A stretch of 64,000 nt of DNA from Gloeobacter violaceus PCC 7421 (GTDB taxonomy: Bacteria > Cyanobacteriota > Cyanobacteriia > Gloeobacterales > Gloeobacteraceae): contig NC_005125.1 in assembly GCF_000011385.1 (NCBI RefSeq), forward strand, positions 1,550,001 through 1,614,000, written 5' to 3'. Under the pieces are notes generated by a model, which was given only the letters and a program-made list of their open reading frames with translations, was not told the origin of the DNA and did no database searches. A program made the position numbers and the translations under genes. Shown here one piece after another: positions 1 through 51,296 of the stretch (its first letter is position 1; each line of letters starts with the position of its first letter).

Positions 1-2
1 CC

Positions 3-161: not shown

Positions 162-177
162 GGGGCAACGCCGCCGT

Positions 178-2286
178 TCACGCTTCCGGTGCGGCAAGCA
201 GCGGCGCTTCGGTACCCTCCTCCGTGGGTGGTTCCGACTCGTCGCGCACCACCATCAAGTCCACTTGTTGGCGGTAGTAGTCTATCCCCTTGACTTTGAC
301 GGTGACCGTGTCGCCAATTTGAAAGCGGCGGCGGCTGCGTCTGCCGATCAAGGCGGGTTCGCGCGCCTGGAAGGTGTACCAGTCGTCTTTGAGACCGCTG
401 ACGTGCACCAGGCCCTCGACGAAGGGTTCTTCGACGGCGACGAAAAATCCGTAGGATTGCACACCGGTAATCAGCCCCCTGAGGGGTTCGGTCTGGGTGC
501 CGAGCCGGCCGATGCGCTCGAAGCCCTCCAGGTCCGCCTGGGCCTGGTGCACCTGCTGCAGCCGCGCGCTGAGGTGGCTTACCGAGCCTGGCAGCGCCTC
601 CTCCCAGTCTTTTTGGACTTTGGGTTTGAGCACCGGCCAGTCGATGAGCCCATGGCAGTTCGAAGAGTGCAGATCGACGCTCACCTTGCTGCGCGGCGTC
701 TTGCGATCGCGGCCGTCGGTGTGCACCTGCTGGAGTAAGCGCTGCACCAACAGGTCGCCGTAGTGTTCGAGCGGACGGCCAAAAGGGGCGACCGCCATGC
801 TGTCGCGCCCGAAGTGGTGCCGGGGCTCCGCCGCGAATTGTTCCACCGGCAGGGTGGTCAGCAGCAGCTCGCGCAGGGCGCGGTTGGCCCCCTCGGGCTG
901 CTCCAGAAGCCAGGTGCGGTACTGCCGCACGGTGAGTTCCACCGAAGCGTCCGCCTCGGGCACCTCCAGGCCGCAGGCGCGCGCCAGGCGCAGCCAGTCG
1001 ACCACCTCGCCGCCCTGCGGCCCCGGCTCGAACAAAAAGGGTGCCCCCAGGTGCAGGTGGGCCAGATGCTGCCCGATGAGCGATTCGAGCAGTTCGATAA
1101 AAATGCGCGGATCCGAAGCGCCGAGCAGCGGGCCTGTCCCCTGGGCGGCCAGGGCGGCGGCGACGGCGGCGTAGGGTTCACTCAGGCTCTCCAGGCGGCC
1201 GCGGGCGCGCACCAGCGAGGGTGTCCAGCGAAAGGCGCGCACCTGGCCCGTGGTGTCGAGGTTTACCAGCACCGACCAGGCGGAACGGCCGGTGTCGGGC
1301 AGCAGAGCGCAACGCTCCAGCAGCGCGTCGGGCCACAGTCTGAGGCTGCGATCGCGCAGGCGCGCCGCCAGGCCGCGCCGGTAGGCCTCGGCGTCGAGGG
1401 TCGAACCCGCCTCCACCAGCACCGCCACATCGCTCACGTGCAAACCCAGTTCCCAACCGCCCTCCGTCGGTACCAACGAGAGGGCCGTCTGGAGCAATTC
1501 CCCCGGCAGCGCCCACACTTCGAGCGCCTGCAGATCCTCGCGCCCCTCCGGCGCCGCGGATGCGGCAAGCTGTGCAGCCGCATCGAGCACCGCCTGGGGA
1601 AACTCGAGCGGCAACTGATAGCGGCTGGCCACCAGGTCGAGATCCACCAGCGGATCGTTGGCGTGGCCGAGCACGCGCAGCAATCGGCATTTGGCCGGCC
1701 GCCGCCCTAGAGGATAGCGGGTGATCTCCACCTCGACAATCAAGTCGGCCGCCACGTCCGGAATTTCGGCATCGACCAACTCCAGAACGCTGCCCAGCCG
1801 GTCGTCCAGGGGAGCGACCTGCAGGAGTTTGGGCTTGTCTTCGCCCGCGTCCGCTTCGGCGAGGCGGCCCACCAGGGCGGTGTGCGCCCGCTCGGTCACC
1901 AGCACCACTTCTCCTTCGGGTTTGCGGCGGCGCGAAGCTTTTTTGAGCAGGCGCACCAGCACCCGATCGCCATTCCAGGCATTTTTGAGGCTACCTTCGA
2001 CGACAAAAATTTCCTCCGCCTCCGGCTGCTCGGGGGTCACAAAGCAGAAGCCTTTTGAGCTGCAGCGCAGGCGTCCGCCGACGATTTCTTCGTTGGCAAC
2101 CAGGCGGTAGCGGCCCTGCATTTTCTCGATCAGGCCGACTTTCTCGAGGGCGTCGAGCACCAGTTGCAGCTGGGCAAGCGCCGCGCCGTCATCGAGGGAA
2201 AGCTTTTGCTGAAGCACCTTCGGCGCCACCGAGCGTTCCGGTGAGAGTAGACCCAGCAAGTCGTGTACAGAAAATTGCATGCCCAT
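178..2286 (-). CDS. RNase II/R-family protein, probably catalytically inactive
   Basis: The 702-residue protein has the RNase R/II layout: N-terminal winged-helix and OB cold-shock-like regions (about 1-190), a central RNB-like domain (about 240-590) and a C-terminal S1 domain (about 610-690, RGLITGVQSYGFFVAVEE). RNB landmarks remain, such as LGLHVSDVAVLV and EAYRRGLAARLRDR. The catalytic block, normally TIDxxDAxDFDDA, reads VWALPGELLQTAL, with no aspartate. The later SPIRRYPDL block reads FGRPLEHYGDL. It may therefore bind RNA without hydrolysing it. Cyanobacteria also carry the related Zam protein, and this could be that paralogue. Start: ATG at 2286 with GGAAG about 8 bases upstream; a second ATG follows 6 bases later. 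It is divergent from the helicase-like gene, 100 bases away. Confidence 0.8.
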   Translation of the reverse strand: MGMQFSVHDLLGLLSPERSVAPKVLQQKLSLDDGAALAQLQLVLDALEKVGLIEKMQGRYRLVANEEIVGGRLRCSSKGFCFVTPEQPEAEEIFVVEGSLKNAWNGDRVLVRLLKKASRRRKPEGEVVLVTERAHTALVGRLAEADAGEDKPKLLQVAPLDDRLGSVLELVDAEIPDVAADLIVEVEITRYPLGRRPAKCRLLRVLGHANDPLVDLDLVASRYQLPLEFPQAVLDAAAQLAASAAPEGREDLQALEVWALPGELLQTALSLVPTEGGWELGLHVSDVAVLVEAGSTLDAEAYRRGLAARLRDRSLRLWPDALLERCALLPDTGRSAWSVLVNLDTTGQVRAFRWTPSLVRARGRLESLSEPYAAVAAALAAQGTGPLLGASDPRIFIELLESLIGQHLAHLHLGAPFLFEPGPQGGEVVDWLRLARACGLEVPEADASVELTVRQYRTWLLEQPEGANRALRELLLTTLPVEQFAAEPRHHFGRDSMAVAPFGRPLEHYGDLLVQRLLQQVHTDGRDRKTPRSKVSVDLHSSNCHGLIDWPVLKPKVQKDWEEALPGSVSHLSARLQQVHQAQADLEGFERIGRLGTQTEPLRGLITGVQSYGFFVAVEEPFVEGLVHVSGLKDDWYTFQAREPALIGRRSRRRFQIGDTVTVKVKGIDYYRQQVDLMVVRDESEPPTEEGTEAPLLAAPEA

Positions 2287-2386
2287 ACCCCGCTTCCATA
2301 GATCTTGTTTAGTGAGCTTGCCCGATTAGCGTTCATGGTAACGTTTAGGCCCTGTTGTTCGCACGGGGAGTCTTACACTGGGTGCC

Positions 2387-3844
2387 ATGGGCATTGAGGT
2401 TCAGGTCCATCGCCAGCTGTTGCAGTTGCTGCGCTCGGAGCAACTGCCCACCGTCTGGCCCCACCAGTTGACGATGGGGCGGCTGGTGGCCCGCGCCCTT
2501 TCCCAGGGCCGATCGACCCTGGTGCAGGTGAGCGGTTCGGGAGAGCACCGCCTCAGCTACCTGTTGCCGGCCCTGAGCGCCCCGGAGCCGGTGATCCTCT
2601 GCGCGAGTGAAACCATCCAGCAGCAATTGCTCGATGTCGATTTGCCGCTGTTGCGCCGCAACCTGGCTACCGAAAAACCGATCGGTTTGGGCGATCGCTG
2701 GCCCGGTACCGGGTGGCAGGGGGTGCTCATCACCGACCCGCTCACTTTTTTGCGCGACCGTCTGCGGGGAGGGAGTCACTTTCCCGAGGGCGTCGCTGTG
2801 ATCTTCGACGGTGCCCACGGCCTGGAGCAGTGGGCCATCCAGGCGCTCTGCGAGCGCATCGAGCCGGCCGACTGGGACGATCTGCGCGAGGGCGACTTTG
2901 AGCGGGCCGAATTCTGGCTCGACTGGCAGGTCGGACTCAGCCGCGCCCTCTCCAGCCAGCCCCATCACCGCGCGGCCCTGAGTCCCGGCCGCCAGGCCGA
3001 ACTGGCGAGCGCTCTGGGTGAATCTCCCCCCAGCGAGGCCTGGCGGCGCTTTCGCGCCGCCCTGGGCGCACCCGAGCGCGCCCACTGGGTGCAGTACTAC
3101 CGCCAGAGCAACCAGTTCAGCCTGGTCAGTTCCCCGATCGCCGTGGCGGGCGATTTGGCGCGCGCGCTCTGGCCCCGCCAGCCCGCCGTCGTCATCGGCG
3201 AAGCGCTCGACCCGGCGCGCGAAGCGCGCACTTTCCGGTCCTGGGTGGGCCTGGAGGAGGTGACCTGTCTGCGCTTTCCCGCCGACCCGCGCGAGCAGGA
3301 GGTGCAGCTCTACCTGCCTACGCAACTGAGCGATCCCACGTCTTCTCAGTACCGGCAGCAGATTGAACCGGTGCTGGTGGAACTGGCGGCCCTTGCCGCC
3401 GGGCCGCTGGTGATCTTGTTGCCCGAAGGTCCGTTGCGCTCCCACCTGGGCACCTTTCTCGCCTCGCAGTTCGGCTCGCGCGTCGGCATTCATCGCCTGC
3501 AGCCGCCCCCCAACGGCATCACCCTGGCCAGTTGGGAATTTTGGGAAGCCAACCACCATCACCTGGGGGCTCCCACGACCCTGGCAGTCTGCGCGCTGCC
3601 TTTTCCGCGCCTCGACGACCCGCTCGTGGCTGCGCGGGTGCAGTGGCTCAAAGACCGCCGCCGCGATTGGTTTCGCGAGTACCTGCTGCCCGTCGCCATT
3701 GGCCGGCTGCAGCGGGGCATCAGTCCTCTGCGCCAGACCCAAGGTCTGGTGGCACTGCTCGATAACCGCATCAACCACCGCAGTTACGGCGGCCAACTGC
3801 TGGATGCCCTCACCCCCGCCCGTCGGCTGCGCTACCTGGAGTAA
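2387..3844 (+). CDS. DinG/XPD-type helicase-like protein with degenerate motifs
   Basis: The 485-residue protein follows the DinG/XPD superfamily-2 helicase template from end to end. It has a Q-motif-like WPHQLTMGRLVARAL (about residue 24), a Walker A position, a DEAH position, LPFPRLDDPL, and a C-terminal GLVALLDNRINHRSYG resembling the motif VI region. The key residues are changed. Walker A GTGTGKS reads VSGSGEHR, DEAH reads DGAH, and the QGxGRxIR arginine motif reads RGISPLRQ. The four cysteines of the XPD/DinG iron-sulfur cluster are not visible. ATP hydrolysis is therefore doubtful. The fold assignment is confident; loss of activity is inference. Confidence 0.75.
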   Translation: MGIEVQVHRQLLQLLRSEQLPTVWPHQLTMGRLVARALSQGRSTLVQVSGSGEHRLSYLLPALSAPEPVILCASETIQQQLLDVDLPLLRRNLATEKPIGLGDRWPGTGWQGVLITDPLTFLRDRLRGGSHFPEGVAVIFDGAHGLEQWAIQALCERIEPADWDDLREGDFERAEFWLDWQVGLSRALSSQPHHRAALSPGRQAELASALGESPPSEAWRRFRAALGAPERAHWVQYYRQSNQFSLVSSPIAVAGDLARALWPRQPAVVIGEALDPAREARTFRSWVGLEEVTCLRFPADPREQEVQLYLPTQLSDPTSSQYRQQIEPVLVELAALAAGPLVILLPEGPLRSHLGTFLASQFGSRVGIHRLQPPPNGITLASWEFWEANHHHLGAPTTLAVCALPFPRLDDPLVAARVQWLKDRRRDWFREYLLPVAIGRLQRGISPLRQTQGLVALLDNRINHRSYGGQLLDALTPARRLRYLE

Positions 3845-3935
3845 CTTATTGGCATCCCAGGTTCAGCAAACTTTCTGGAGATGCACAGTACAACCCAATC
3901 GATTCGCATAAAACAAGGCCGTTCCTCGTTCGCCT

Positions 3936-6172
3936 TTACGGAGTGGGAGAGGGCCGCGCTGGCTGGGAGGGAGAGCTTGGCGTGATGTTGCGCAGTACCG
4001 TGACGGTGGCGGCTGAGTAGATGGCGGTGGTGAGGTCGTTGTCGAGGTCGCCGTCAAGGTCCGCCAATGCCACCGAAAAGGGAGGACCCCCAACCTTGAA
4101 CGCTTGGGCGGGGGCGAAGCTGCCGCCGCCGGTGTTCAACAACACATATACACTGCCATAAGAATAGTTACCACTGACAGCGGCAATATCGAGGTCACCG
4201 TCGCCGTCCAGGTCCCCCAACGCCACCGAGATGGGAGAGCCTCCGGCAAAAAACGACTGGGGGGGGCCAAAGCTGCCGCCGCCGGTGTTTTGAAGCACCG
4301 TCACATTGTTGGGGCGTGCTGTGGCGGTGGCGAGGTCGAGGTCGCCGTCGCCATCGAGATCCCCCAACGCCACCGACTCAGGTGAGTCCCCGACCGCAAA
4401 CGATTGGGCAGGGGCGAAGCTGCCGCCGCCGCTGTTCGACAACACAGACACGTCGTCGGATGCGCCGTTGGCGGTGACGAGGTCGAGGTCGCCGTCGCCA
4501 TCGAGATCCCCCAACGCCACCGATTGGGGATCATCCCCAACCTTGAACGCTTGGGCGGGGGCAAAGCTGCCACCGCCGGTATTCAGCAACACAGACGCGT
4601 CGTCGGATTCTCTGTTGGCGGTAGCGAGATCCAGATCGCCGTCGCCATCGAGATCCCCCGACGCCACCGAGTAGGGGCGGAACCCGGCCGCGAAGTTGCG
4701 GGCGGGGGCGAAGTTGCCGCTGCCGGTGTTCAACAAAACCGTTACGCTGCCGGGGTAGTCGGGAAATGAGCCGCCATTGGCGGTGGCGATGTCGAGGTCG
4801 CCGTCGCCGTCTACGTCCCCCAACGCCACAGACTTGGGATTGAACCCGACCGCGAAGGAGCGGAAGCGGACGAAGTTGCCACCTCCAGTGTTCTGAAGCA
4901 CCGTCACATTGCTAGAGGCTGAATTGGCGGTGGTGAGGTCGAGGTCGCCGTCGCCGTCGAAATCTCCCAGCGCCACAGTTTCGCCGCCAGCCGCAAAGGA
5001 GCGGGCGGCCGCAAAGCTGCCGCCGCCGGTGTTCGACAACACAGACACGTCATTGGATTGGCCATTGGCGGTGGCGAGGTCGAAGTCGCCGTCGCCATCG
5101 AGATCTCCCAGCGCCACCGAGTAGGGGCGGAACCCGGCCACGAAGTTGCGGGCGGGGGCGAAGTTGCCGCCGCCGGTGTTCAACAAAACCGTTACGCTGC
5201 CGGTGACTTGGTAAACCGAGCCGCTGTTGGCGGTGGCGATGTCGAGGTCCCCGTCGCCGTCTACGTCCCCCAACACCGCCGAACTGGGAGAGTCCCCGTT
5301 CCTGAAGAAACGGGTGTTGGCGAGGGTGCCGTTGCCGGTGTTCAGCAGCACCAAGACCCTTTGGCCAGAGGCGGTGACGAGATCGAGGTCGCCGTCGCCG
5401 TCTACGTCCCCCAACGCTACTGTGGTGGGACGGTCCCCGGCCACGAAGTTGCGGGCGGGGGCGAAGCTGCCGCTGCCGCTGTTCGACAACACAGACACGT
5501 CGTCGGAGTAATTATTGGCAGTGGCCAGATCCAGATCGCCGTCGCCATCGAGATCCCCCAACGCCACCGAAAGGGGAGAGTTCCCGGCTGCAAAGGAGCG
5601 GGGGGGGGCAAAGCTGCCACCGCCGGTGTTCAGCAGCACCGACACGTCGTCGGATTCTCTGTTGGCGGGACGATGTCGAGGTCGCCGTCGCCATCGAGAT
5701 CTCCCAACGCCACCGAGTAGGGGCGGGACCCGACCGCGAACGCTTGGGCGGGGGCAAAGCTGCCACCGCCGGTGTTCAGCAGCACCGACACGTCGTTGGA
5801 TTCCCTGTTAGCGGTGGCGATGTCGAGGTCGCCGTCGCCGTCGATATCCCCCAGCGCCACCGACTTAGGTAAGTCCCCGACTGCAAAGGAGCGGGGGGGG
5901 GCAAACCCGCCACCACCGGCGTTCAGCAGCACCGACACATTGCCGGGGTCGGCATAGTCGCCGCTGGCAGTGGCAATGTCGAGGTCGCCGTCGCCGTCGA
6001 TATCCCCCAACGCCACCGAGGTGGGACGCTCCCCGGCCGCAAAGGAGCGGGCGACCCGGAAGTTTACCTGTGCCCCCGCAGCCGACGGCCACGCCCCTAA
6101 CACCGCCGCTAGCGCCAGACCCCACCACCACGGCGGGCGGCGGCGGCGGTCTCTTTCACTTCCCTGTCCCAT
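3936..6172 (-). pseudogene. Secreted FG-GAP/VCBS repeat protein, frame broken near 5669
   Basis: Two minus-strand frames, 5630-6172 and 3936-5645, together encode one protein. It begins with an Arg-rich signal peptide (GLALAAVLGAWPSAAGAQ) and continues as about 14 tandem repeats of 46-54 residues of the form SVALGDLDGDGDLDLATAN...SVLLNTGGGSFAPARSF. The DxDGDGDxD loops are calcium-binding FG-GAP/VCBS beta-propeller blades. The third repeat breaks frame near 5669: this unit reads gttggcgggacgatg where sister units read gttggcggtggcgatg, a one-base loss. Such proteins are usually exported and act in adhesion or carbohydrate binding. It may be a true pseudogene, a phase-variable gene or a sequencing error. 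Start: ATG 6172, preceded by AGGT 5 bases upstream. Confidence 0.85.
3970..6060 (-). repeat. Tandem coding repeats of about 140-165 bases (VCBS blades)
   Basis: About 14 imperfect direct repeats sit inside the FG-GAP gene. Each carries the block encoding DGDGDLD and a second block encoding NTGGGSFAP. The unit length varies because the loop between the blocks varies. Near-identical units make the array prone to slippage and unequal recombination, and also to assembly error. Confidence 0.9.
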
Positions 6173-6306
6173 GTTTTACCTAGAACTTTTCTTATAAAGG
6201 ATCGTCCCCACGATACCAGTAGCGTTCACTAATCACTGGTGCTTAGTCCGACGGCGTTGCACACAAAAATGATGATATCGGATCGGGTTTATTTGCAAAA
6301 GCGGTG

Positions 6307-6324
6307 CACTTCATTCTTGAAGTG
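6307..6324 (-). terminator. Small hairpin after the TonB receptor gene
   Basis: CACTTCA at 6307-6313 pairs with TGAAGTG at 6318-6324 over a 4-base loop, 16 bases past the stop codon of the receptor gene. The tail on the minus strand contains only a short T run (CTTTTG), so termination is plausible but weakly supported. Confidence 0.4.
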
Positions 6325-6339
6325 GCGTAGTAGATAGGC

Positions 6340-8673
6340 TCAAAAGGCGGCCTTGAGCCCCAGGCGAAAGTTAACGGGCGGCGCGCCGTTGCCGTAGTTG
6401 CGCTCGTAGCGGGTGTTGGTAAGGTTGTCGAGGTAGCCCAGCACCGAGAGGTTTTCGGTGACGGGCACCCGGAAGGAAAAGTCTAGCGTCGTGTAACCGG
6501 GCAACAGCGCCCCCGGCGGCAGGGCAAAGGCGTTGGCGATGGGCAGCCCCGCCGGGCTGTTCAGTTCGGCGAAGCCCGGGCCGATGTGCAGCGGGTCGCT
6601 GGAGCGTAGGCCCTGGAAATTGACAAACAGCGCCCCGCGAAAACCGCCGGGGCTGTCGTAGGAAAAACCGGCCCGACCGCTGTGGAAGGGTACCAGCGGG
6701 TACTGGGTCTGGGTGTAGGCGGGTTTAAAAGCTTGCTCCACCCGCGAGTCGGTGTAGGTCTCGGTCGCAAACAGCGTCCAGTACGGGGCAAACTGCCAGC
6801 TTGCCGCCAACTCGAAGCCGCTGGAGCGCACCCTCGGGAAATTGACTCGCACGCGCTCATTCAGTTCGTAGCCGAACTTGTCGATGAGCAACTGATCTTC
6901 CGGCGAATTTTCTTCGATCAGGTTGTAGCCCTGGAGGTTGTCGATGTCGTTGAGAAAGTAGCTGAAGCGGATAAGGCTGGTCGGGCTGGGCTGCCAGTCA
7001 ATGCCTGCATCGAAAGTCGAACCGCTCTCCGCCAAGAGATCCGGGTTGCCCAGGATCTCGCCGCGGCCGAACAGGTCGTTAAAATTGGGAGTCTTGTAGA
7101 CGCGGCTGAAGGTGCTGCGCAGGGCCAGTTGGGGGATCACCTGCCAGCGCACTCCGACGCTCGGGGTGAGGGCGCCGTTAAAGTCGCGGTTAAATTCGCG
7201 GCTGGTGGCGCGGGTGCCGAAGATACCACGCAAACCGAGCGTCACCGTCACGTCGTCGGCGGGTTTGTAGCTTGCCAGGGCAAACAGCGACGGCTGCGAG
7301 ATGGCCGCCTCGTAAATGAGCGGGTTTTCGCTGCCGAAGGAGTTGCCGCCCTCGCGCAAAAAGTCGAAGCCGTAGCTCAAGTTGAGGGCCGGGGCCACCT
7401 GCCAGGTATGCAGCACGCGGGTGCCGAAGATGCCGATGTCGTTGGTGGCAAATTCGGTCTCCCCTTCTTCGACTTCCTGCTCGGTGGTGCGGCCCCGGTC
7501 GTAAGAAAGCCGCACCTGCAAATTCGAGTCGTCGGCTTCCCCCAGGCGGGTATTGGAAGTGACGGCAAAGCCGTAGTAGTCGATCAATATGCGAGGAAAG
7601 AGCGCCCCGTTAAGGCCCAGTTCGTCGGCGGAAAGGTTGACGACGTTGCCTGCTTCGTCCCTGGCCGGGATTGACGTGCGCGGATCGCGAATGGCGAAAA
7701 GCGAAATGCCCCGGCTGCCCTGGCGGTAGTAACTGGTGAAATTGAGCGTCGTGCGCGGCATGATCTCCCAGTCAAGGTCGAAGCCGTAGTTGGTGCTGGT
7801 AAACGCCCCGTTGATGCGCTTGTCTTCGAAGACCGGCACCGGCCCGCCCGGCCGCTCCACCCGGTAGAAAAAGTCGTTGTTGGTGTTGAAGTAGGTGGCG
7901 TAGAGGTTGAAGCGCACACTCTCACCCAACGGCCCGCCCACGTAGGCGCGGTAGTCGCTGTAGCCGTAGCTGCCGTAGGTCACCTCGACGTTGCCCTCGA
8001 AAACCTTGGGGGGACGCTTCGTGATCACGTTGATCACCCCGCCCACCGCTGTCGAACCGTAGAGGGTGGTTGCCCCGCCGGTGAGCACCTCGATGCGGTC
8101 GATCCCCGCCACCGGCAACTCGTTGAGATCGACGTGCTCCTGGTTGAGGTTGTTGAGCGAGCGGCCGTCGATGAGCAAGGCGGTGCTGGTGGTGGGCAGC
8201 CCCCGGATGAAGTAGGTGCTGTGCACATCTGCCCCCGCCCCGGACAGATTGCTCACTACCCCCGGCACGCCCCGCAGGGCGTCGCCCACCGTGCGCGCCC
8301 CTTTTTGTTCGATTTCTTTTTGATCGATGACGTAGACGCTCCCCGGAATGTCGCGCACCCGCTGGCGACGGAAGCTGCCGGTCACCGTCACATCGTCCAG
8401 TTCAAAGGTCTCGGAGCCAACCGCTGCAGGCGGCACTGGGTCTGAAGCGACAGGCTCAACGGGAACGGCGGGTTCTGGGGCGGGGGACGCGGCCGGGGAG
8501 GGCTCCTGGACCAACAAATCCGCAGCCCGACCGCCCGTGGCGGCCAGATCGCTCACCGTCGGCACCGCGCCTGCATCTTGAACAACCGCAAGCGTCCCGG
8601 CAAACCCGCAACCGAGTGCCAGAAGCAAGCGGCTTGCCCGATGCAGCCCATAAAAATTCCAGATCGGCACCAC
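6340..8673 (-). CDS. TonB-dependent outer-membrane receptor (siderophore/cobalamin type)
   Basis: The 777-residue protein has a hydrophobic signal sequence (LLLALGCGFAGTLAVV), a Pro/Ala-rich linker, a plug domain (about 95-215, DVTVTGSFRRQRVRDIPGSV and GIDRIEVLTGGATTLYG), and a long beta-barrel ending in the aromatic RLGLKAAF. It should import a chelated metal or similar ligand across the outer membrane using TonB-ExbBD, which are not nearby. It has no N-terminal AMIN or STN signalling domain. Start: GTG 8673 behind AGGAG with about 6 bases spacing. A Fur-box-like sequence sits about 45 bases upstream, so iron control is likely. The substrate cannot be told from sequence; BtuB-like and catecholate receptors are both possible. 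Confidence 0.9.
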   Translation of the reverse strand: MVPIWNFYGLHRASRLLLALGCGFAGTLAVVQDAGAVPTVSDLAATGGRAADLLVQEPSPAASPAPEPAVPVEPVASDPVPPAAVGSETFELDDVTVTGSFRRQRVRDIPGSVYVIDQKEIEQKGARTVGDALRGVPGVVSNLSGAGADVHSTYFIRGLPTTSTALLIDGRSLNNLNQEHVDLNELPVAGIDRIEVLTGGATTLYGSTAVGGVINVITKRPPKVFEGNVEVTYGSYGYSDYRAYVGGPLGESVRFNLYATYFNTNNDFFYRVERPGGPVPVFEDKRINGAFTSTNYGFDLDWEIMPRTTLNFTSYYRQGSRGISLFAIRDPRTSIPARDEAGNVVNLSADELGLNGALFPRILIDYYGFAVTSNTRLGEADDSNLQVRLSYDRGRTTEQEVEEGETEFATNDIGIFGTRVLHTWQVAPALNLSYGFDFLREGGNSFGSENPLIYEAAISQPSLFALASYKPADDVTVTLGLRGIFGTRATSREFNRDFNGALTPSVGVRWQVIPQLALRSTFSRVYKTPNFNDLFGRGEILGNPDLLAESGSTFDAGIDWQPSPTSLIRFSYFLNDIDNLQGYNLIEENSPEDQLLIDKFGYELNERVRVNFPRVRSSGFELAASWQFAPYWTLFATETYTDSRVEQAFKPAYTQTQYPLVPFHSGRAGFSYDSPGGFRGALFVNFQGLRSSDPLHIGPGFAELNSPAGLPIANAFALPPGALLPGYTTLDFSFRVPVTENLSVLGYLDNLTNTRYERNYGNGAPPVNFRLGLKAAF

Positions 8674-8716
8674 CGCTCACTCCTCGCTCAACCATCGTGG
8701 CGATGATAGCAGGAGC

Positions 8717-8729
8717 GATTATCATTATC
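8717..8729 (-). promoter_or_regulatory. Fur-box-like operator upstream of the TonB receptor
   Basis: On the minus strand the sequence reads GATAATGATAATC, which matches the first 13 positions of the 19-base Fur consensus GATAATGATAATCATTATC exactly. It lies in the 58-base gap between the tRNA nucleotidyltransferase stop and the receptor start. The right half of the consensus is not conserved (gctcct), so it fits the tandem-hexamer view of Fur sites. Confidence 0.65.
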
Positions 8730-8731
8730 AA

Positions 8732-10417
8732 TTAATTCTCGTAGGCGCGATTTCCCGGTTGGGCGCGGTCTTGCAGCCAGGCAAGCGCTCCTTCGCGGTC
8801 GACGAGCTTGCCGGCAAGTTGGGCCGTTGTGGCGTCATCGAGAATTTTGCGAAAGTCCGGACCGGGCTTGAGACCCAGGGCTTTCAGGTCGTCGCCGCCC
8901 ACCAGCGGCGGTTCCCGGCGGCGCTGCAGATAATCAGCGATCGACTGGCGCCGTTCGGTCTGCCCGATCGCACTTGCCAGCAGCAGACTCTCCTCCGGCC
9001 CAAGGCCCGCCAGGTGCCGGTGGAGCGCGGCGGCGGACCAATCGGTCTGTTTGGCGAGGACGAGGAGCGCGGCGCGCACTTTGCGCTGCCGGGTACGGGC
9101 GTGGCCGTCGAGGGGGAGGCTCTCGGCCGCCTGCGGCCCCACGGCGAGCAGCAGCCGATCCAGCCGCAACTGAGGGAGGGTCGCCCGCAAAGGCGCAAAC
9201 GCTCCATACCCACCCTCCAGCCACACCAACGCCGCTGCCAAGGCCTCCGTCAGTCGCAGATCCGGGTGCACGCAGCGCAGCGCCCCGAGCCGGTCGAGCA
9301 GTTGCAGCCCTTCCAACCAAAAAGGGGCCGCAAGCAAGTAGCCGAGTTCCGTCTTCAGGCGTTCCCCGCCGTAAAGATCGTGCAGACCGCCCGAAACGCT
9401 GCGCACAATAAACGCCTCGGTCTGGGGGGCGATCGCGAAGCCGAGCCGTAGCGCAAAGCGCACCGCCCGAAAGATCCGGGTCGGGTCTTCGATGAAGCTG
9501 TTGGGGTGCAGCACCCGCACGATGCGCTCGCGCAGATCGACAAATCCGCCGAAAAAGTCAATCAGTTGCCAGGCGCGTGGGCCGTTGAGGCAGACGGCCA
9601 TCGCGTTGATCGTAAAATCCCGACGGTACAGATCGAGGCGGATCGAGGCGCTCTCGACTTCGGGGTTGGCCCCCGGTCTGGGATAGAACTCGGTCCTGGC
9701 GGTGGCCAGATCCAGCACGAAGCCATCGGGCCAGATCAGCGCGGCGGTCTGGTACTTCTCGAAGCACTCCAGGCGCAAAGTTGCGTCCTCTGCGGCGATG
9801 GCGCGCGCCAGGGCCGGGGCGGCCCCGGCTTCGCCCCCGCGGCCTTCGACCACGACATCGAGATCGCTGCTGGTTTCACCCAGCAGCAAGTCGCGCACCG
9901 CACCGCCCACCAGATATGCCACCTGATCGAGCGCCTCGGCGGTGGCGGCCACCCGGGCGAGGCGCTCGATGGCCACCGCTTCGAGTTTGGCTTCAAGACG
10001 CTCCTGCAAAGGCAGGAACAGCGGCAGCCCGCCGGTGCGCTGCTGGTGGTGCTGGCGCAGCAGGTCGGTGCGGGTGATGATGCCCACCAGTTGCCCCGCC
10101 TCCAGTACCGGCACCCGGCCGATGTCGTAGGTGACCATCAGCGCTTCGATCTCATCGAGCGGGGCGTCCGAGGGCACCGTGAGCACCGTCGCGGTCATGA
10201 ACCGCTCCACCGGATCCTCGGCGAATCCGTGATAAAGAGCAATATCGAGATCGCGACGCGAGATGATTCCCATCAGACCGCCCTGCGCGTTCACCACCGG
10301 CATCGCCCCGTGCCCGTAGCGGGTCAGGCGCTGCCGGGCCGCCATCAAAGCGATCTCCGGGCGCAGTGTGCGCACGGGCGCGGACATCACGTCGCGGGCC
10401 AGCACCACCGCGCTCAC
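8732..10417 (-). CDS. CBS-domain tRNA nucleotidyltransferase / poly(A) polymerase family
   Basis: The protein joins two N-terminal CBS domains (about 1-125; [12 protein letters not shown] and [12 protein letters not shown]) to a class II nucleotidyltransferase. The second part has [20 protein letters not shown] (GGxVRD plus the DxD metal site), the [10 protein letters not shown] block and an RNA-binding C-terminus. It should add A or CCA to tRNA 3' ends. Many cyanobacterial and Aquifex-type homologues carry an extra N-terminal DHH domain, which is absent here. The chosen start is GTG 10415-10417, which overlaps the TGA of the CDF gene (GTGA) and implies translational coupling; an ATG at 10480 would need a 67-base overlap. 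Whether it adds A only or full CCA cannot be read directly. Confidence 0.88.
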
Positions 10418-11373
10418 CGCCGTTTTTCTTTCGGGGAATCGCCCGAGCGGGGGGTGCGGTCGAGTTCGGCGTCCGCCCACGAGAGCGGATCTTCAAGCGG
10501 TTCGAGGTGGGTGGTGACATAACTCTGGGGCAAGGCCGCCTCGACGGCGCGCTCGATTTCCTCGCACAGATCGTGGCCGCGCTGGACGGTCCAGGCGCCC
10601 GGCACCAGTACGTGCAGCGAAATGAACCGGCGCGAGGCGGCCTGGCGGGTGCGCAGGGCATGAAACTGCAGGCCGCCCTCTGCGTAACCGGCCAGAATCC
10701 GCTCGATGCTGCGGGTGTCTTCGTCGCTGAGGGCGCTGTCCATCAGCCCGTCCGCCGACTCGCGCAACAGCCTGAGGGCGGCCCAGACGATGTTGACGGC
10801 CACCGCCAGGGCAATCAGCGGGTCGAGGATGAGCCAACCGGTCAGTTGCACCAGTACCAGCCCAACCACCACCCCGGCGGAGGTCCAGACGTCGGTGAGC
10901 AGATGCTGGGCGTCGGCCTGCAGGGCGAGGGAGCGCAGGCGCTTGCCCGCCGCCGTCAGCACCGCCGCCACCCCGCCGTTGAGGGCGGTGGCGACCAGCG
11001 AGAGCACCATGCCCAAGCCCAACTGCTCCAGCGGCTGCGGATCGAAAAGCCGCCCCACGGCGGTCACGGCGATCCCCACCGCCGCGAGCAGAATCAGCGC
11101 CCCCTCCAGGCCGCTGGAGAAGTATTCCGCCTTCGAGTGGCCGAACGGGTGGGTCTGGTCGGGAGCTCTTGCCGCCACCGTCAGCGCCCAAAAAGTGACC
11201 AGGGCGGTCACCAGGTTGATTCCCGATTCGGCCGCGTCGGAGAGCAGCCCGACCGAACCGGTCAGGACGTAGGCACCGAATTTGATGGCGATCGTGCCCA
11301 CCGCCGCCGCGATCGAAAGCAGCGCATAAGGCCGCGTGGCGTGCGCAGATGAAACGTTCATAGCTGCCACCAC
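10414..11373 (-). CDS. Cation diffusion facilitator (CDF) metal exporter
   Basis: The 319-residue protein has about six membrane helices and a C-terminal cytoplasmic domain. CDF landmarks are [14 protein letters not shown] in helix 2, [17 protein letters not shown] in the 2-3 loop region, and HLLTDVWTS (HxxxD) in helix 5. These fit a proton-driven exporter of divalent metals such as Zn, Fe or Mn. The helix 2 site is D-A-A-E-S rather than the DxxxD of FieF, a pattern seen in one CDF subgroup. The first codon is GTG 11373; an ATG at 11361 is an alternative. The gene is translationally coupled to the following nucleotidyltransferase gene. The exact metal is unknown. Confidence 0.9.
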
Positions 11374-11400
11374 AGTAGCAGGCCGCCCTCCGGGCTCCCG

Positions 11401-11811
11401 TCAGGGCACCACCAGCACCGGGCAGGGGGAGAGGTTGATCACCCGGCTGCTGGTGCTGTGGTGTTTGCCTTCTTCGATAAGACCGAGTCCGCGGCTGCCC
11501 ATGACGATCAGCCCCGCCCCGACTTCATCGGCCACATCGCAGATCACAAAGGCGGCTTTGCCCGCGTCGATGCGCGCGTCGGTCGGATACCCTTCGCCCT
11601 GCAGCCGGTCGCGCACGGTCTGGGCAAGGGCCTGGGCCTTGGCGCGCACTTCGGCCAGGTGGGCTTCGCGCTCGGGCATCTCCTCGGGTAAATCGACCAC
11701 CGACAGCAACAGCAGTTTGCTGCTGTACTGGCGGGCGAGGCTCAAAGCCACCTGCAGCGCCCTTTCGCTTTCCGGCGAACTGTCCAGGGGCAACAGAATC
11801 AGTTCAAACAT
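11401..11811 (-). CDS. Universal stress protein (UspA family)
   Basis: The 136-residue single Usp domain begins MFELILLPLDSSPESERAL and ends in SPCPVLVVP, the usual UspA strand pattern. The ATP-binding loop begins GSRGLG, but the second half reads HHSTS rather than a clear G-S/T, so nucleotide binding is uncertain. An upstream in-frame GTG (11829) and ATG (11817) exist; the ATG at 11811 is preferred because GGAGG lies 6 bases before it. It follows the GldA-like gene closely on the same strand and is probably cotranscribed with it. Confidence 0.85.
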   Translation of the reverse strand: MFELILLPLDSSPESERALQVALSLARQYSSKLLLLSVVDLPEEMPEREAHLAEVRAKAQALAQTVRDRLQGEGYPTDARIDAGKAAFVICDVADEVGAGLIVMGSRGLGLIEEGKHHSTSSRVINLSPCPVLVVP

Positions 11812-11832
11812 CGCCATCCTCCGCTCCACCCA

Positions 11833-12939
11833 TCAGCTTAGACGAGCGGCGCGCGGCCGGGCGCTCTCGCGCAGCACCCGCGCCAACTGCTCGGGTTCGA
11901 CGGCAAAAGGCAAGTAATGGATGTCGGATTGCGGCTGGCAGCACAGCCGGGCAACCGCCAGCAACTGCTCGTCGTCCAGCGCAGCGAGGTGCAGATCCTC
12001 AAGGCTCAAAGGCAGACCCACACGGCGGTAGAACTGTTCGAGCTGCTCGCGGGCGATGCTTGCCAGGCGCTGGCGGCCGACGGTTTCTTCGAGCCTAAGT
12101 TGAACCAGAACACCCAGGGCGACTTTTTCGCCGTGCAACGAGCGGCGGGTGGCACCCAGGCTGGTGAGGCCGTTGTGGACGGCGTGGGCGGCGACGGTGC
12201 GGCAGCGCGCCCCCCCAAGGCCCCCCACCATCCCCGCCAGGCAAATGCTTGCATCGACCATCTGCTCCCAGGCCCGGCCGCCGGGTTCGCCCACGGCCGC
12301 TTCTCCCAACTGCAAAATCAAGTCGCGCAGCACCCGGGCCTGCTGCACGGCGCTAATCACCAGCACATCGTCCGAGTCGCCGGAGCTGATGGACGCTTCG
12401 TACCACTTGGCGAGGGCGTCCCCCATGCCGCTCACCAGCGTGCGCACCGGGGCGGTGGCAATCAAGTCGTAATCGACGATGAGCCCTTCAGGTGCGTGGT
12501 CGAGTTCGACGCCGTAGAGCCACTGGCCCGCTTCGGAGTAAATATTCGACAAAGCCGCCCAAGCCGCACAGGTGGCCGCCGAGGTGGGCAGCGCGATCAT
12601 CGGCAGGCCGCGGCGCGCCGCGACCAGTTTGGCCATGTCGAGGGCTTTACCGCCCCCGACGCCGATCACCACGTCGTGCCCGGACGCCTTGTCCACCAGT
12701 CGCGCCAAGTTCGCTTCGGTACAGTCGATACCGTAATCGGCAAAGACTGCTTCAAGCCCCGCTTCCTGTAAAATCTTCTCCAGCGTCGGTCGCCAGCGCG
12801 CCAGGGTATTTTGGCCACCGACGATCAGCGGTCGGCTTCCGAGCCGCCGGGTCCATTCCCCCAAGATTTCGATAGTGCCGTGACCGCGCCGTACTTGCTG
12901 CGGGGCCACCAGAGTTTGCAGCGCTATAGTTTCGTTCAA
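11833..12939 (-). CDS. Iron-containing alcohol dehydrogenase family (GldA-like)
   Basis: The 368-residue protein is a GldA-like dehydrogenase. It has a nucleotide-binding VVIGVGGGKALDMAKLVA (about residues 90-107) and likely metal ligands at the aspartate of GMGDALAKWYEA, the histidine of AAHAVHNGL and the histidine of LHGEKVALG. Family members oxidise glycerol or other polyols with NAD, or act on phosphorylated glycerols. The substrate here is not determined. The frame starts at TTG 12939 (MNETIALQTL), with no strong ribosome-binding site. The divergent neighbour is the aspartase gene at 13061; the 121-base gap presumably holds both promoters, but none stands out. Confidence 0.85.
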   Translation of the reverse strand: MNETIALQTLVAPQQVRRGHGTIEILGEWTRRLGSRPLIVGGQNTLARWRPTLEKILQEAGLEAVFADYGIDCTEANLARLVDKASGHDVVIGVGGGKALDMAKLVAARRGLPMIALPTSAATCAAWAALSNIYSEAGQWLYGVELDHAPEGLIVDYDLIATAPVRTLVSGMGDALAKWYEASISSGDSDDVLVISAVQQARVLRDLILQLGEAAVGEPGGRAWEQMVDASICLAGMVGGLGGARCRTVAAHAVHNGLTSLGATRRSLHGEKVALGVLVQLRLEETVGRQRLASIAREQLEQFYRRVGLPLSLEDLHLAALDDEQLLAVARLCCQPQSDIHYLPFAVEPEQLARVLRESARPRAARLS

Positions 12940-46411: not shown

Positions 46412-46765
46412 ATGGCTGATTGCATCCGTTTGCGGGAGATCGTCTGCTACGGCTACAGCGGTGTGTATGCCGAGGAGCGCCGCCTCGGCCAGCGCTTCAT
46501 CGTCGACGCCGATCTGCACATCGATCTGCGTACCGCCGGTGGCAGCGATCGCCTCGAAGACAGCCTCGACTACGGCGCTCTGGTGACGGCGGTGCGGCAG
46601 ATCGTCGAAGAGCGCCAGTTTTCGCTCCTCGAAGCACTGGCCGAGGCGATTGCCCGGCGCCTGCGCCAGGATGCGCGCGTGCAGCAGGTACGCGTCGTCG
46701 TCGCCAAACCCCAGCCGCCCATCCCCGGCTTTACCGGCAGCGTCGCCGTCGAGATCTGGCGCTGA
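46412..46765 (+). CDS. folB: Dihydroneopterin aldolase
   Basis: The 117-residue protein has the FolB pattern IRLREIVCYGYSGVYAEERR, SLDYGALVTAVRQIV and FSLLEALAEAIARRL, and a C-terminal strand VRVVVAKPQPPIPGF with the catalytic-type Lys. It cleaves dihydroneopterin to 6-hydroxymethyldihydropterin in folate synthesis. Start ATG 46412, 5 bases after rodA, so it is likely coupled to it. Confidence 0.93.
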   Translation: MADCIRLREIVCYGYSGVYAEERRLGQRFIVDADLHIDLRTAGGSDRLEDSLDYGALVTAVRQIVEERQFSLLEALAEAIARRLRQDARVQQVRVVVAKPQPPIPGFTGSVAVEIWR

Positions 46766-46823
46766 GGGTCCGCTGCACCTGCCGCTCAAGCCACAATGGT
46801 CGGGGCGTCGCGGAGCAACACCT

Positions 46824-49244
46824 GTGCGCTGGATCTGTTTTTCGTTATCTCTGAGCGCCGCCTGGGGACTCACCGCTGCCCCAACCCTCGCCCACACCGC
46901 CCAGGATTTGCGCGAAACGGCCAGCCTGAGTGCTATGGACCTGGCCGCTCCACTCCCGGAGGCCGCCCTCGCCCAGGCCGGTGAACCGCAAAGCGCCCCC
47001 CCCGAGGCGGACTTGCTCGATGAGGTGACGGTGAGCGCCACCCGCCGCCCGACCCGCGAGCGCGACACCACCGCCACCACCTACACCGTCAAGCGTGAGG
47101 ACTTCCAGGCCCTGGGGGCCAGGACGGTCCCGGACGCCCTGGCCCTCATTCCCGCCTTCGAGACCCAACCGGCCCTGGGCGGGGTGCGCAACGCCCGGGG
47201 TCTGTTTTTGCGCGGTTTCGACGACGCCCGCTTCCAGGTGCTCAAGGACGGCCTGTCGCTCACCCGGCCCTCCAACGGCCGCAACGATCTTTCGCGCCTC
47301 CCGCTGGCGGACATCGAGCGCATCGAAGTCCTCACCGGCGGCGCCACGCTGCGCTACGGCGCCGGGGCGGTGGGAGGGGTGATTAATCTGATCACCGAGA
47401 CGCCCGCAGGAGCGCCCAAGCTTACCCTGGCCTACGAAGCGGGCTCCTACGGCAACAGCACCGCCACCGCCAAATACGGCGGCGGCGACAGCACCTTCAA
47501 TTACCTGTTCACTTACACCGGCCTGGTCGCCTTCAACAACTACCCGTTTCGCTTCACCCTGCCCAACACGGCCCTGTTCTATGGTCCCGAAGCGATCACC
47601 CCCGACGGCACCAGCCTCTTTGGCTTTTTGCGCCCCGAAGTCGGTCCGCCGCTCACGCTCACCGGTGTGGCCGATTCGGCCTTTAACGCGAGCGACACCT
47701 ACACCGGCAAACTGGTCTGGCGGCCCTCCGCCGAACATCGCCTCACCCTGCGCGCCAGCCACCAGAACAGCAAAAACGCCGGCAACGGCCCCGGTCTCTA
47801 CGCCGCAGGCGCCTGCTTCGGCGGACCCGGCAGCGGCAACGCCACCCTCGAAAGTCAAACCCGCTTCCTTCCCCTCGATGCGGCTGGCCGGGAGTTGTCC
47901 TGCGACACCCAGCGCTATCTGGTGAGTACCCCGAGTGCCGCCGTCGCCATCCCCTACGCCTTCAAGCGCTCTGCGGACGGCACGGTCACCTTTGCACCCG
48001 GCCAATCCTACCCGGCCGCCGAGAGCGCCATCGGCACCATCGACTTTTACATCACCACCTTCCAGTCGCAGACTGAGACGGCCTTTTTCTGGGACTACGA
48101 CTTGAGCCCAACCGCATCGATCAACAGCTACGCCGCCTACTACCGTTTCACTAGCCCCCGCACCCGCCCCGCCCGCTTCGCGGTGAACACCGACGTGCTC
48201 GGGGGCGAGACGGCCTTTGCCCTGGGCCAGTTGGGATCGCCCTTTACCGAGGACAGCAAACTGGAACTACAAAGCGCCCTCAACACCCAAATTTCCCCCG
48301 GCCAGACCCTTTCTTTTGGGGTGAATTTCATCGAGGACCGCTCGTTTCAGCAGCAACAGCGCGGCAGCACCTTTGTGGACCGGGCGATTGCGCGCACATC
48401 GCTGTTTTTGATCGACGACATCCGCTTTGGCGACCAGCTCGCGGCCAATCTGGGAGTGCGCTACACCGATTCGACCCAGTTCGGCGCGGTGCTCACCCCG
48501 GCAGCGGGCATCCGCTTCAGCCCCAGCCGCGCCTTTTCGCTCAGGGCCAACTGGTCGCAGGTCTTCAACGCCCCGAACATCTCGGATCTCTACACCGCCG
48601 GGGGCGTCTTTGTTCCCAACCCGGACCTCAGGCCCGAGACCGGCATCACCTACGATCTGGGCTTCGACTTCACGCCCGCGTCCAACCTGGGCTTGCGCTT
48701 CACCTACTTCAACACCACCCTGGACGGGGCAATCGCCACGGTCTTTTTTCGCAACCCCGACTCCGGCGATCCCAATCTGTTTTTGCAGCAGCAGCGCAAC
48801 CTCGACACCCGCTACGCCTCGGGTCTCGAAGTGGTGGGCGACTGGCAAGTTGCCGACCAGTGGCGTCTGCGTCTCACCTGGACCAATACCGACGCGCGCT
48901 TCGTCGGAGCAGTCGATTCGAACGACACGCGCCTGTTTTTTGCCCAGTATCAAGATCCGAACATCCCCTTCAACCGGGTGGCCCTCGCCGCCACCTACGC
49001 CCACCGCGGCTGGAGCGCGACGCTGTTGGGCCGCTATGCAGGCGGACGCCGCCGGGGCGAGGATCCTTTCGGCGTACCGGCCTACGCGAGCGTGGATCTT
49101 AACTTCGAGCTCCCGGTCGCCCCCCGATTCACCCTCACCGGCAATCTGTTCAATCTCACCGATACCCAGTACGAATACGCCGCCGGTATCCCGGCCCCCG
49201 GATTCACCTTCCGCCTGGGCGGGCGTGTTGAGTTGGGCGGTTAA
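46824..49244 (+). CDS. TonB-dependent outer-membrane receptor
   Basis: The 806-residue protein starts at GTG 46824 behind GGAG, with a signal peptide (FSLSLSAAWGLTAAPTLA). The plug domain carries DEVTVSATRRPTRERDTTAT and RIEVLTGGATLRYGAGAVGG. The beta-barrel ends FRLGGRVELGG. A large extracellular loop near 330-375 holds two Cys (ACFGGPGSG and LSCDTQRY), possibly disulfide-bonded. It should import a siderophore, cobalamin or similar ligand. No Fur-like box is visible upstream, unlike the other receptor in the window. A longer upstream frame overlaps folB and is rejected. Confidence 0.9.
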   Translation: MRWICFSLSLSAAWGLTAAPTLAHTAQDLRETASLSAMDLAAPLPEAALAQAGEPQSAPPEADLLDEVTVSATRRPTRERDTTATTYTVKREDFQALGARTVPDALALIPAFETQPALGGVRNARGLFLRGFDDARFQVLKDGLSLTRPSNGRNDLSRLPLADIERIEVLTGGATLRYGAGAVGGVINLITETPAGAPKLTLAYEAGSYGNSTATAKYGGGDSTFNYLFTYTGLVAFNNYPFRFTLPNTALFYGPEAITPDGTSLFGFLRPEVGPPLTLTGVADSAFNASDTYTGKLVWRPSAEHRLTLRASHQNSKNAGNGPGLYAAGACFGGPGSGNATLESQTRFLPLDAAGRELSCDTQRYLVSTPSAAVAIPYAFKRSADGTVTFAPGQSYPAAESAIGTIDFYITTFQSQTETAFFWDYDLSPTASINSYAAYYRFTSPRTRPARFAVNTDVLGGETAFALGQLGSPFTEDSKLELQSALNTQISPGQTLSFGVNFIEDRSFQQQQRGSTFVDRAIARTSLFLIDDIRFGDQLAANLGVRYTDSTQFGAVLTPAAGIRFSPSRAFSLRANWSQVFNAPNISDLYTAGGVFVPNPDLRPETGITYDLGFDFTPASNLGLRFTYFNTTLDGAIATVFFRNPDSGDPNLFLQQQRNLDTRYASGLEVVGDWQVADQWRLRLTWTNTDARFVGAVDSNDTRLFFAQYQDPNIPFNRVALAATYAHRGWSATLLGRYAGGRRRGEDPFGVPAYASVDLNFELPVAPRFTLTGNLFNLTDTQYEYAAGIPAPGFTFRLGGRVELGG

Positions 49245-49295
49245 TCAACTTATTTCATACACACAGCCATTTACAAAATGAATTTCTCAATATTC

Positions 49296-49892
49296 TCATG
49301 ATTGCCATTGTTTGAATTCTGTACGTAGCTCTTGAAGTAGTTTGCCCAATGAGTTGTCAACTACTTCCATGCGCTGTAGGTCCATTGCATCAACAATCGC
49401 AGCGGCGTGTTCAACGCCCCCAAGCAGAGGCGTGATGTTGGCTTCAACTACCGCTTGCAATAATAGTTTCTTGTAACGATCACGGTCACATTTGAGGTCC
49501 GGAGCCTGACACCCCTTACCAAGGGCTTGTTTGAAGGCAGACGAGTCCAGTAAGAGCCATCTTTCAATGTGTGGATCAGGTATGGCACACACTATCCGCT
49601 CTCCAGATTCCTCAGTAACTCTATCTATCTCCCTTTTTCGCTCGATATATCCTTTGCAGTTAGCATCAATAGCCACAATCAACAGATCTGCACGTACAAG
49701 TCTATGTACACGTACATCCCGGATGTACTGCCTTAGCTCAGTAATCGCCTTACCATAGCCACCGCGCACACTGAAGGGTCTAAGTATTGCTTCGATAGCA
49801 TAATCATCCGAGAAGCGTTTAAGTAACGCACTGATAAATATTTCATGAGCACTATCTTCGGCAAAAAGGTTGATACTACGAATCAAAGTCAC
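49296..49892 (-). CDS. TOPRIM-like (DUF4276/RloB-type) partner of the ATPase
   Basis: The 198-residue protein begins LIRSINLFAEDSAHEIFISA, where Glu of FAED fits the conserved TOPRIM acid. It continues with ADLLIVAIDANCKGYIE (an Asp-x-Asn metal site) and CAIPDPHIERWLLLDSS, the pattern shared by DUF4276 and RloB-type proteins. Such proteins are probable nucleases paired with ABC-type ATPases. It starts at GTG 49892 and overlaps the ATPase gene by 17 bases, so the two are translationally coupled. The region is clearly AT-richer than its surroundings. The family match is by motif only and is moderately certain. Confidence 0.75.
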   Translation of the reverse strand: MTLIRSINLFAEDSAHEIFISALLKRFSDDYAIEAILRPFSVRGGYGKAITELRQYIRDVRVHRLVRADLLIVAIDANCKGYIERKREIDRVTEESGERIVCAIPDPHIERWLLLDSSAFKQALGKGCQAPDLKCDRDRYKKLLLQAVVEANITPLLGGVEHAAAIVDAMDLQRMEVVDNSLGKLLQELRTEFKQWQS

Positions 49893-51189
49893 CTCTCATG
49901 ATGCGCTCAGAAGCAGATAGATCTTCCTCTTCATTCAAAGCTTTATCTTTGTCGTTATCGTACCAAAGACCACCCAGTGAATACTTTGTAAACGGGATGA
50001 TATCCGTAGAACCTTTTACTTTCCGAAAGACATACAACGAATCGACAGGTATTAGATCTGCAAGAACAGGCGAATGGGTAGTTGCCATCAGCTGTGTGCT
50101 ACCCAGCTCTACGCGCGTTCTCAACAACTGTGCAATTAATTTAATGCGCCGAGGATGTATACCGTTTTCAGGCTCTTCAAAACCGATGAGAGCGGGTGGT
50201 TCCTTCGCGCCGCCAAGAGCCAGCAAACCTAAGATCCTCAAAGTACCCTCTGAAAGAACACGTGCGGGTACCGGCTTTTCTCCTTCAATCAACAGCAGTT
50301 CCACTTCGCCTAAAGCATTCACGTGTACATCAATACCAGTTACCGAAGGAATAATAGTATGGAGTGTTCTTTCAACAGCTCGAAACTGCGGCTCATCCAG
50401 GGCCCTAAGTGTATTCAAGAAGGAAGCTAATTCTTCGCCCATAAGACCGATATGGCGAACTTCTTTCACTGGGTTAGGAGTGCGCATGCGTTCGCGCGGC
50501 TCGAAGTAAAAAAAGAACCAATTTGCAAGTTCTTGACGAACTGCAACTAGGTGAGGATAGTGAGGAGGGTAAAGTGGAAGAGAAAGTATACTGTGATCGA
50601 GGTACTGTTCATAGTAAGTTGGGTGTGACTGTCCTTCCATACGCAGATGCAAACGATCATTTCTGCGCTCAAGAAAGGCGGTTCTCTTTCCCGTAGGCTC
50701 GCCTTTAGTATTCAATGCAGCTAGATATTCATCAGCAACTCGCAATATTCCTGATTTTGGCAACACCTCAACTTCGATTCTATAACGGAGGTTTTTTTCT
50801 CGTACTGATGCTTGGGCTTTGCTCTGGGATGAAGACGGGCTATCTGGAGTTCTTTTCTTCATCTCCCTAATTTGATTATTCACACTTTCGATCACGATCG
50901 GCGATAGCTCAACATCGACTTCAATCATGAATGTCGCTGTTTCTTTTGTGAGTAAGCCCTGCAGACCACGGGCACCAAATGTAAATGATTCTAGAGGAGT
51001 ACCACGGTAGGGGGGATCGAAAGCCTGCTTTAAATTTTTACTATTTACGATTCTCGACAAAAGCTGAAGGGCATCCAAAAAATTGCTCTTTCCAGCAGCA
51101 TTTGGTCCAAAAAAAACACTTAAAGGCTTAAGATCGACCTCTAGATTTTCAAGAGATTTATACCCCTTTATTTTGACTCTTTTGAGCAT
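49876..51189 (-). CDS. AAA/ABC-type ATPase (RecF/OLD-like), putative defence ATPase
   Basis: The 437-residue protein has Walker A FFGPNAAGKSNFLDAL (about 27-42), an ABC signature VLSEGTLRILGLLAL, Walker B IGFEEPENGIHPRR and the H-loop LMATTHSPVLADL. This is the AAA_21/OLD-like SMC-type ATPase. The middle (about 110-260) is an insertion with no recognisable domain, and no TOPRIM is fused at the C-terminus; instead the adjacent gene supplies one. This is a split version of OLD-type nucleases. Start: ATG 51189 with GGAG 6 bases upstream. A plausible promoter precedes it (TTACTA, 17 bases, TATACT). Confidence 0.88.
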   Translation of the reverse strand: MLKRVKIKGYKSLENLEVDLKPLSVFFGPNAAGKSNFLDALQLLSRIVNSKNLKQAFDPPYRGTPLESFTFGARGLQGLLTKETATFMIEVDVELSPIVIESVNNQIREMKKRTPDSPSSSQSKAQASVREKNLRYRIEVEVLPKSGILRVADEYLAALNTKGEPTGKRTAFLERRNDRLHLRMEGQSHPTYYEQYLDHSILSLPLYPPHYPHLVAVRQELANWFFFYFEPRERMRTPNPVKEVRHIGLMGEELASFLNTLRALDEPQFRAVERTLHTIIPSVTGIDVHVNALGEVELLLIEGEKPVPARVLSEGTLRILGLLALGGAKEPPALIGFEEPENGIHPRRIKLIAQLLRTRVELGSTQLMATTHSPVLADLIPVDSLYVFRKVKGSTDIIPFTKYSLGGLWYDNDKDKALNEEEDLSASERIMRGDFDS

Positions 51190-51220
51190 CTGCTACTCCA
51201 ACCAAAATGGCTGCCGTTAA

Positions 51221-51249
51221 AGTATAAGGTTAACTTTAGGACATAGTAA
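51221..51249 (-). promoter_or_regulatory. Possible promoter of the ATPase-TOPRIM pair
   Basis: On the minus strand TTACTA (51249-51244), 17 bases and TATACT (51226-51221) precede the ATPase start by about 31 bases. The -35 is weak, so the assignment is tentative. Confidence 0.35.
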
Positions 51250-51296
51250 CATTCGAGTAAAATATACAAAGGAATTGCTAGACCAAAAATGAATAT

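Follow-up and report, generated by a model that had tools for sequence, protein, structure and literature searches.

An overlapping ABC-type ATPase and DUF4276 gene pair in Gloeobacter violaceus, a member of the candidate anti-phage type HEC-01

The window analysed here is a stretch of 64,000 nt from the genome of Gloeobacter violaceus, a single contig of 4,659,019 bases. It contains two overlapping genes, hereafter A and B, which occupy nearly the whole of an AT-rich insert. The features of the locus are as follows:

49876-51189, minus strand: gene A, an ABC-type (OLD/SMC/RecF-like) ATPase of 437 aa, PADLOC HEC-01A, proposed sensor/holder subunit (from Pfam, PADLOC, structure model and motifs)
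49296-49892, minus strand: gene B, a DUF4276 protein of 198 aa with a GTG start, PADLOC HEC-01B, predicted TOPRIM-fold nuclease effector (from Pfam, PADLOC, structure model and residues)
49876-49892, minus strand: overlap of 17 nt between the end of A and the start of B, the GTG start of B lying within the A codons for Gly-Asp
49276-51292, no strand: AT-rich insert, absent beside either flank in the congeners G386 and G388

The first-pass annotation had reported a 17-base overlap between the ATPase gene and that of the small protein, and the overlap (49876-49892) and both open reading frames are as claimed; its GC counts are likewise exact, with 25 of 60 bases at 50581 and 39 of 60 at 48601. 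GC content across the pair is 44.8% versus 62.0% for the window, and same-length windows clear of the pair average 62.5% (SD 3.3, minimum 53.6%). The AT-rich patch extends from about 49.2 to 51.3 kb and is barely longer than the pair itself (1.9 kb). Overlap of the two genes likely brings about translational coupling. Most relatives of B begin with an ATG that gives an 8-nt overlap with A. The codon at this common start position, 9 bases further in, is ATT in the window (49881-49892), and the upstream GTG with its 17-nt overlap is the likely start here. Both frames are kept as proteins across phyla, and this protein-level conservation rules out an artefact.

Gene A bears the motifs of an SMC/RecF-type ATPase that had been read from the sequence, namely Walker A (GPNAAGKSN, residues 28-36), the signature (LSEGTLR, 312-318), Walker B (GFEEPENG, 336-343), and the H-loop (TTHS, 370-373), and nearly all of its catalytic-motif residues are invariant among 78 relatives. 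The protein belongs to Pfam AAA_21 (E 8e-31) and matches PADLOC HEC-01A over residues 1-377 (E 3.2e-58, 195.9 bits), with weaker matches to the AriA, AbiLi, mad3, and OLD models. Its predicted structure (pLDDT 88.6) resembles the ABC heads of SMC, Rad50, and PtuA-type proteins with Z scores of 19-23. An insertion in the ATPase previously described as unusual proved to be normal in the family, since PADLOC HEC-01A and 77 relatives align across it. The C-terminal end of A, a near-invariant RGDFDA-like segment, comes after a low-confidence linker in the model, and its conservation is high at S427 (63 of 78), R429 (65 of 78), R432 (76 of 78), and G433 (77 of 78). Since R432 and G433 are encoded beyond the A/B overlap or at its margin, the constraint acts on the A protein. 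The conserved tail may dock B.

Gene B contains the three motifs noted at first pass (FAED at residues 10-13, DAN at 76-78, and PDPHIERWLL at 105-114) and is assigned to Pfam DUF4276 with 33.2 bits against a cut-off of 30.2; the same family is matched by all 74 relatives of B. The match of B to PADLOC HEC-01B is weak and distant (E 1.2e-6, 26.4 bits), and the best single HEC-01B model recovers 52 of the 74 relatives at E <= 0.001. At only 26 bits, the match means that the clade of B is poorly represented in the HEC-01B models. The predicted structure of B (pLDDT 96.9) aligns with PH0156 (2p62) at Z 10.8, with the Toprim domain of TsOLD (6p74, residues 371-525) at Z 8.3 over 134 residues and 3.8 A, and with XcOLD at Z 7.3. 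Unrelated lumazine synthases score up to Z 7.8, so the fold of B taken alone is suggestive, not decisive. A Foldseek search with the B model returned no match at E < 0.001, and comparison of the B profile with sequences of solved structures gave nothing meaningful. Profile-profile comparison of B with OLD-TOPRIM and DUF4435 aligned the Glu, Gly, and Asp positions without reaching significance (Prob 2-3%). Together, the modest fold match and the motif layout fit a TOPRIM-like protein.

Three features define a Toprim domain: a Glu following strand 1, a Gly following strand 2, and a DxD following strand 3 (PMC6755086). In OLD nucleases, metal A is bound by the Glu and the DxD, and metal B by the residue at Glu+4 together with a [T/S/D]-x-E motif on the following helix, corresponding to E404, T506, and E508 in BpOLD and to D381, S478, and E480 in TsOLD (PMC6755086, PMC7049728). 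The Glu/Gly/Asp/helix-Glu layout of B is that described for Toprim and OLD in these two studies. With secondary structure taken from the model, E12 follows the strand at residues 5-11, G45 the strand at 35-40, and D76, the first Asp of the DxD, the strand at 70-74; all three are found in 74 of 74 relatives, as are H108 and E110, which form an HxE where the helix that follows strand 4 begins. At the second DxD position, N78, Asn is found in 73 of the 74 relatives and Asp in one, and at the Glu+4 position, H16, His is found in 68 and Gln in the others. The alignment of other DUF4276 proteins often has Glu at position 16 and at position 108, and position 110 is Glu in every row with a clear motif. 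With regard to the proposed check, a TOPRIM hit with catalytic Glu and Asp, E12, G45, and D76 are kept and the OLD Toprim domains are matched modestly at Z 7-8; the second Asp is Asn.

Judged by alignment and secondary structure, acidic ligands appear to have been replaced in the B clade by His, Asn, and His. The metal-B ligands of OLD proteins are acidic, Thr, or Ser, and those of other DUF4276 proteins mostly acidic, whereas the B clade would have two His and one carboxylate. Because DxN stands in place of DxD, the catalytic competence of B is presumptive, and the Asn found there in 73 of the 74 relatives could mean that B is an inactive nuclease or one of reduced activity. We tentatively raise the possibility that the clade consists of TOPRIM nucleases with a remodelled two-metal site, in which H16, H108, and E110 would form metal B and the DxN would contribute to metal A. 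If so, the site would suggest another metal (Mn, Fe, Zn, or Co), or else a chemistry or substrate unlike those of OLD and AriB, and metal or redox state might control the effector.

A scan of one genome per species yielded 80 loci with a B homologue of 37-56% identity, spread over about 19 phyla. Conserved co-occurrence, suggested earlier as a check on the pair, is pronounced: an A homologue lies directly upstream of B on the same strand at 78 of the 80 loci, two of these A frames being truncated, and the exceptions are one locus at a contig edge and one with a separation of 7 kb. The overlap is 8, 11, 17, or 20 nt in 71 of the 80, with B starts picked by script. Pairwise distances of A and B are strongly correlated (Mantel r 0.85; top of 2000 permutations 0.30), indicating that the two genes have diverged together. 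The tree of A mixes phyla, requiring 32 changes versus a minimum of 18, and well-supported branches force six changes each for Pseudomonadota and Chloroflexota; some of the mixing can come from paralogy and mis-binned contigs. Among the 386 cyanobacterial genomes sampled there were two matches, the window copy included. No relative of the pair was found in plasmid, phage, or viral contig records.

The flanks of the pair point to mobility. Sequence matching the window at 93-94% identity is present in G388 and G386 for both the left flank, which ends at about 49275-49295, and the right flank, which begins at about 51269-51293. In G388 a long distance separates the two flanks, in G386 they are on separate contigs, and neither end has the pair. 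The neighbour common to G386 and G388 beyond the right flank is found elsewhere in the genome of the window. Given that the flanks are separate and the pair is missing in these congeners, the position of the pair coincides exactly with a rearrangement break of about 2 kb. The insert showed neither an integrase nor terminal repeats, and no clean empty site with the two flanks joined turned up; as the flanks are far apart in the congeners, a simple empty site could not be demonstrated. Repeats, promoters, and terminators around the insert occur at chance level only. To the left of the pair, at 46650-49244, lies a TonB-receptor-like gene whose family has many copies in the congeners, and this multicopy family may have helped the rearrangement at the break. 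The source genome also holds at least four DUF4276 matches outside the window (G000:C1: 1230300-1231603, 1961841-1963620, 4058358-4060252, and 2049864-2050304). Three of these four adjoin A-like ATPase matches, so the genome has several related modules.

This distribution bears on whether the pair might serve DNA repair or housekeeping, as an ATPase whose partner is non-catalytic, and have no part in defence. The SMC/Rad50/RecF-like head of A, the replacement of the second TOPRIM Asp by Asn, and the cell-cycle role of an archaeal OLD-family protein (PMC12796447) would all suit such a function. However, the pair is patchily distributed over about 19 phyla; two close congeners lack it, as do 384 of the 386 cyanobacterial genomes sampled; it lies on an AT-rich insert, and it has relatives embedded in defence operons. 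We regard a housekeeping role as very improbable.

The neighbourhoods of relatives bear out the defence-island context that had been proposed as a further check, as they include Hma, DISARM, and restriction-modification (R-M) genes. Clustering of the flanking reading frames brought out three recurrent neighbours, which correspond to HmaB (a DUF1156 methylase), HmaA (a helicase), and HmaC (an ATPase with DUF499). These HmaA/B/C genes surround 14 of the 80 pairs, among them that of Tepidimonas (L019), all on the same strand, and in several of the 14 B overlaps HmaB by about 12 nt. Going by raw counts, chance is a poor explanation for this repeated collinear and overlapping placement within Hma operons. 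Seven further pairs are near type I or type III R-M methylase genes. In the congener G387, a pair with a 49% identical ATPase is found between DrmMI and DrmA in a DISARM locus, and another pair, with a 67% identical ATPase, lies a few genes past dnaA. The latter is the closest cyanobacterial pair (L099, 3856-5779 of G387 positions 1-12000), and its site near dnaA is unusual for a defence module. In about three-quarters of relatives, the flanks examined contain no recognised defence gene of the counted kinds, and the window copy stands alone with no Hma genes around it.

Embedding in Hma and DISARM operons suggests a back-up role when restriction fails, much as TOPRIM-linked OLD ATPases have been proposed to act as back-up effectors for BREX and systems related to it (PMC12839542). 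On a stricter version of this idea, A and B would be accessory subunits of a host restriction system (Hma, DISARM, or R-M), acting for instance as a back-up effector when that system is inhibited, and the window copy would work in trans or be a relic. The short gene overlaps within these operons and the BREX precedent fit such a role. Against it, most relatives, the window copy among them, lack such a system in the flanks examined, and neither window gene is disrupted or has lost a motif. We consider accessory status doubtful on balance.

ATPase-TOPRIM pairs recur in immune systems, as in OLD, Gabija, retrons, AbiL, MADS, and PARIS. The earlier statement that neither protein matches a named system did not hold, because the pair corresponds to the PADLOC candidate type HEC-01 (AAA_21 plus DUF4276). 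HEC is short for Hma-embedded candidate, and antiviral activity has been reported for several HECs, including HEC-06 (PMC12988326). Our literature search found no published test of HEC-01 itself, and searching for DUF4276 and HEC-01 by name returned no paper. With HEC-01 the pair shares both gene families, their adjacency, and their co-orientation, and 14 of 80 relatives lie among Hma genes; it differs in that the window copy is outside Hma.

Resemblance to other systems is partial. A aligns over its full length with MAD3, and three relatives of B match the mad4 model. MADS membership is nonetheless ruled out, as A scores 158 bits versus a curated MAD3 cut-off of 420 (NCBIfam), and no other MADS genes lie beside the pair. 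Like PARIS, the pair has an ABC ATPase and a TOPRIM protein as separate subunits, and A reaches 105 bits against AriA models. AriB, however, is a DUF4435 protein, whereas B of the window matches DUF4276 only, and DUF4435 is weakly matched by 4 of 74 relatives (best E 0.0025); B is thus not of the AriB family, and PARIS is ruled out. AbiL and RloA-RloB likewise combine an ATPase with an OLD_TOPRIM-related partner, and A scores 77 bits against AbiLi. RloB, however, is matched by one of the 74 B relatives at E 0.16, so B is not of the RloB family, which rules out these systems also. Class 1 and 2 OLD proteins (TsOLD, GajA) share the ATPase head, the predicted TOPRIM fold, and the corresponding Glu, first Asp, and helix Glu. 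The pair departs from them in having two separate proteins, encoded in different frames, DxN in place of DxD, and His at two predicted metal-B positions. Single-chain OLD membership is ruled out because ATPase and TOPRIM are on separate polypeptides.

The first-pass reading of an acquired two-gene defence module combining an ABC ATPase with a TOPRIM-type protein is supported by the pairing of the genes, the Hma, DISARM, and R-M contexts of relatives, the patchy spread over phyla, the absence beside the same flanks in two close congeners, and the fold and motif layout of B. The genes are linked, relatives occur in variable islands, and the fold of B is TOPRIM-like, with a modest match (Z about 8). 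We think it probable that the pair was acquired horizontally and is an anti-phage module of type HEC-01 with two components, in which A restrains the nuclease B, infection frees B, and the outcome is abortive. We hypothesize that A oligomerises and keeps B inactive, that B, encoded by the overlapping gene, is a small nuclease of TOPRIM fold, and that the overlap would cause both proteins to be produced together. An infection cue would bind A, upon which B would be freed or switched on. B would then cut nucleic acid; the most plausible substrate is host tRNA or another RNA, with DNA as the alternative, and this cleavage would probably halt phage growth through abortive infection. There are two precedents: in PARIS, AriA restrains the Toprim tRNase AriB until a trigger arrives (PMC12409363), and AAA partners neutralise the TOPRIM_OLD toxins with which they are paired (PMC10440598).

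The TOPRIM_OLD toxins and their AAA neutralisers are validated toxin-antitoxin pairs (PMC10440598), and the pair might itself be a toxin-antitoxin or selfish stabilisation module. In that case B would be a toxin and A its neutraliser, loss of the pair would be harmful, and phage defence would be secondary or absent. The gene overlap and strict pairing fit co-production of toxin and neutraliser, and the pair is able to stand alone, as the window copy does. However, the 14 relatives in Hma operons, the congener copy in DISARM, and others near R-M genes point to defence, and no relative was found on plasmid or phage records, which is unusual for plasmid-stabilising modules. Selfish stabilisation of this kind seems unlikely to us.

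As for the anti-phage module, HEC-01 is already a listed candidate anti-phage type and the pair is one member of it. The clade is compact and occurs both alone and within Hma and DISARM operons, which makes sensor, effector, and embedding separately testable. Worth testing is the clade-specific His/Asn variation in the active site of B, as these conserved changes pose a sharp biochemical question on TOPRIM metal use. Beside the DISARM-embedded pair of G387 lies a divergent second two-gene unit (L100, 4777-5346 and 5343-5936, minus strand). Its 189-aa protein is a weak HEC-01B match with a canonical DxD (VVMDADTND), which puts two TOPRIM-like units in one DISARM locus.
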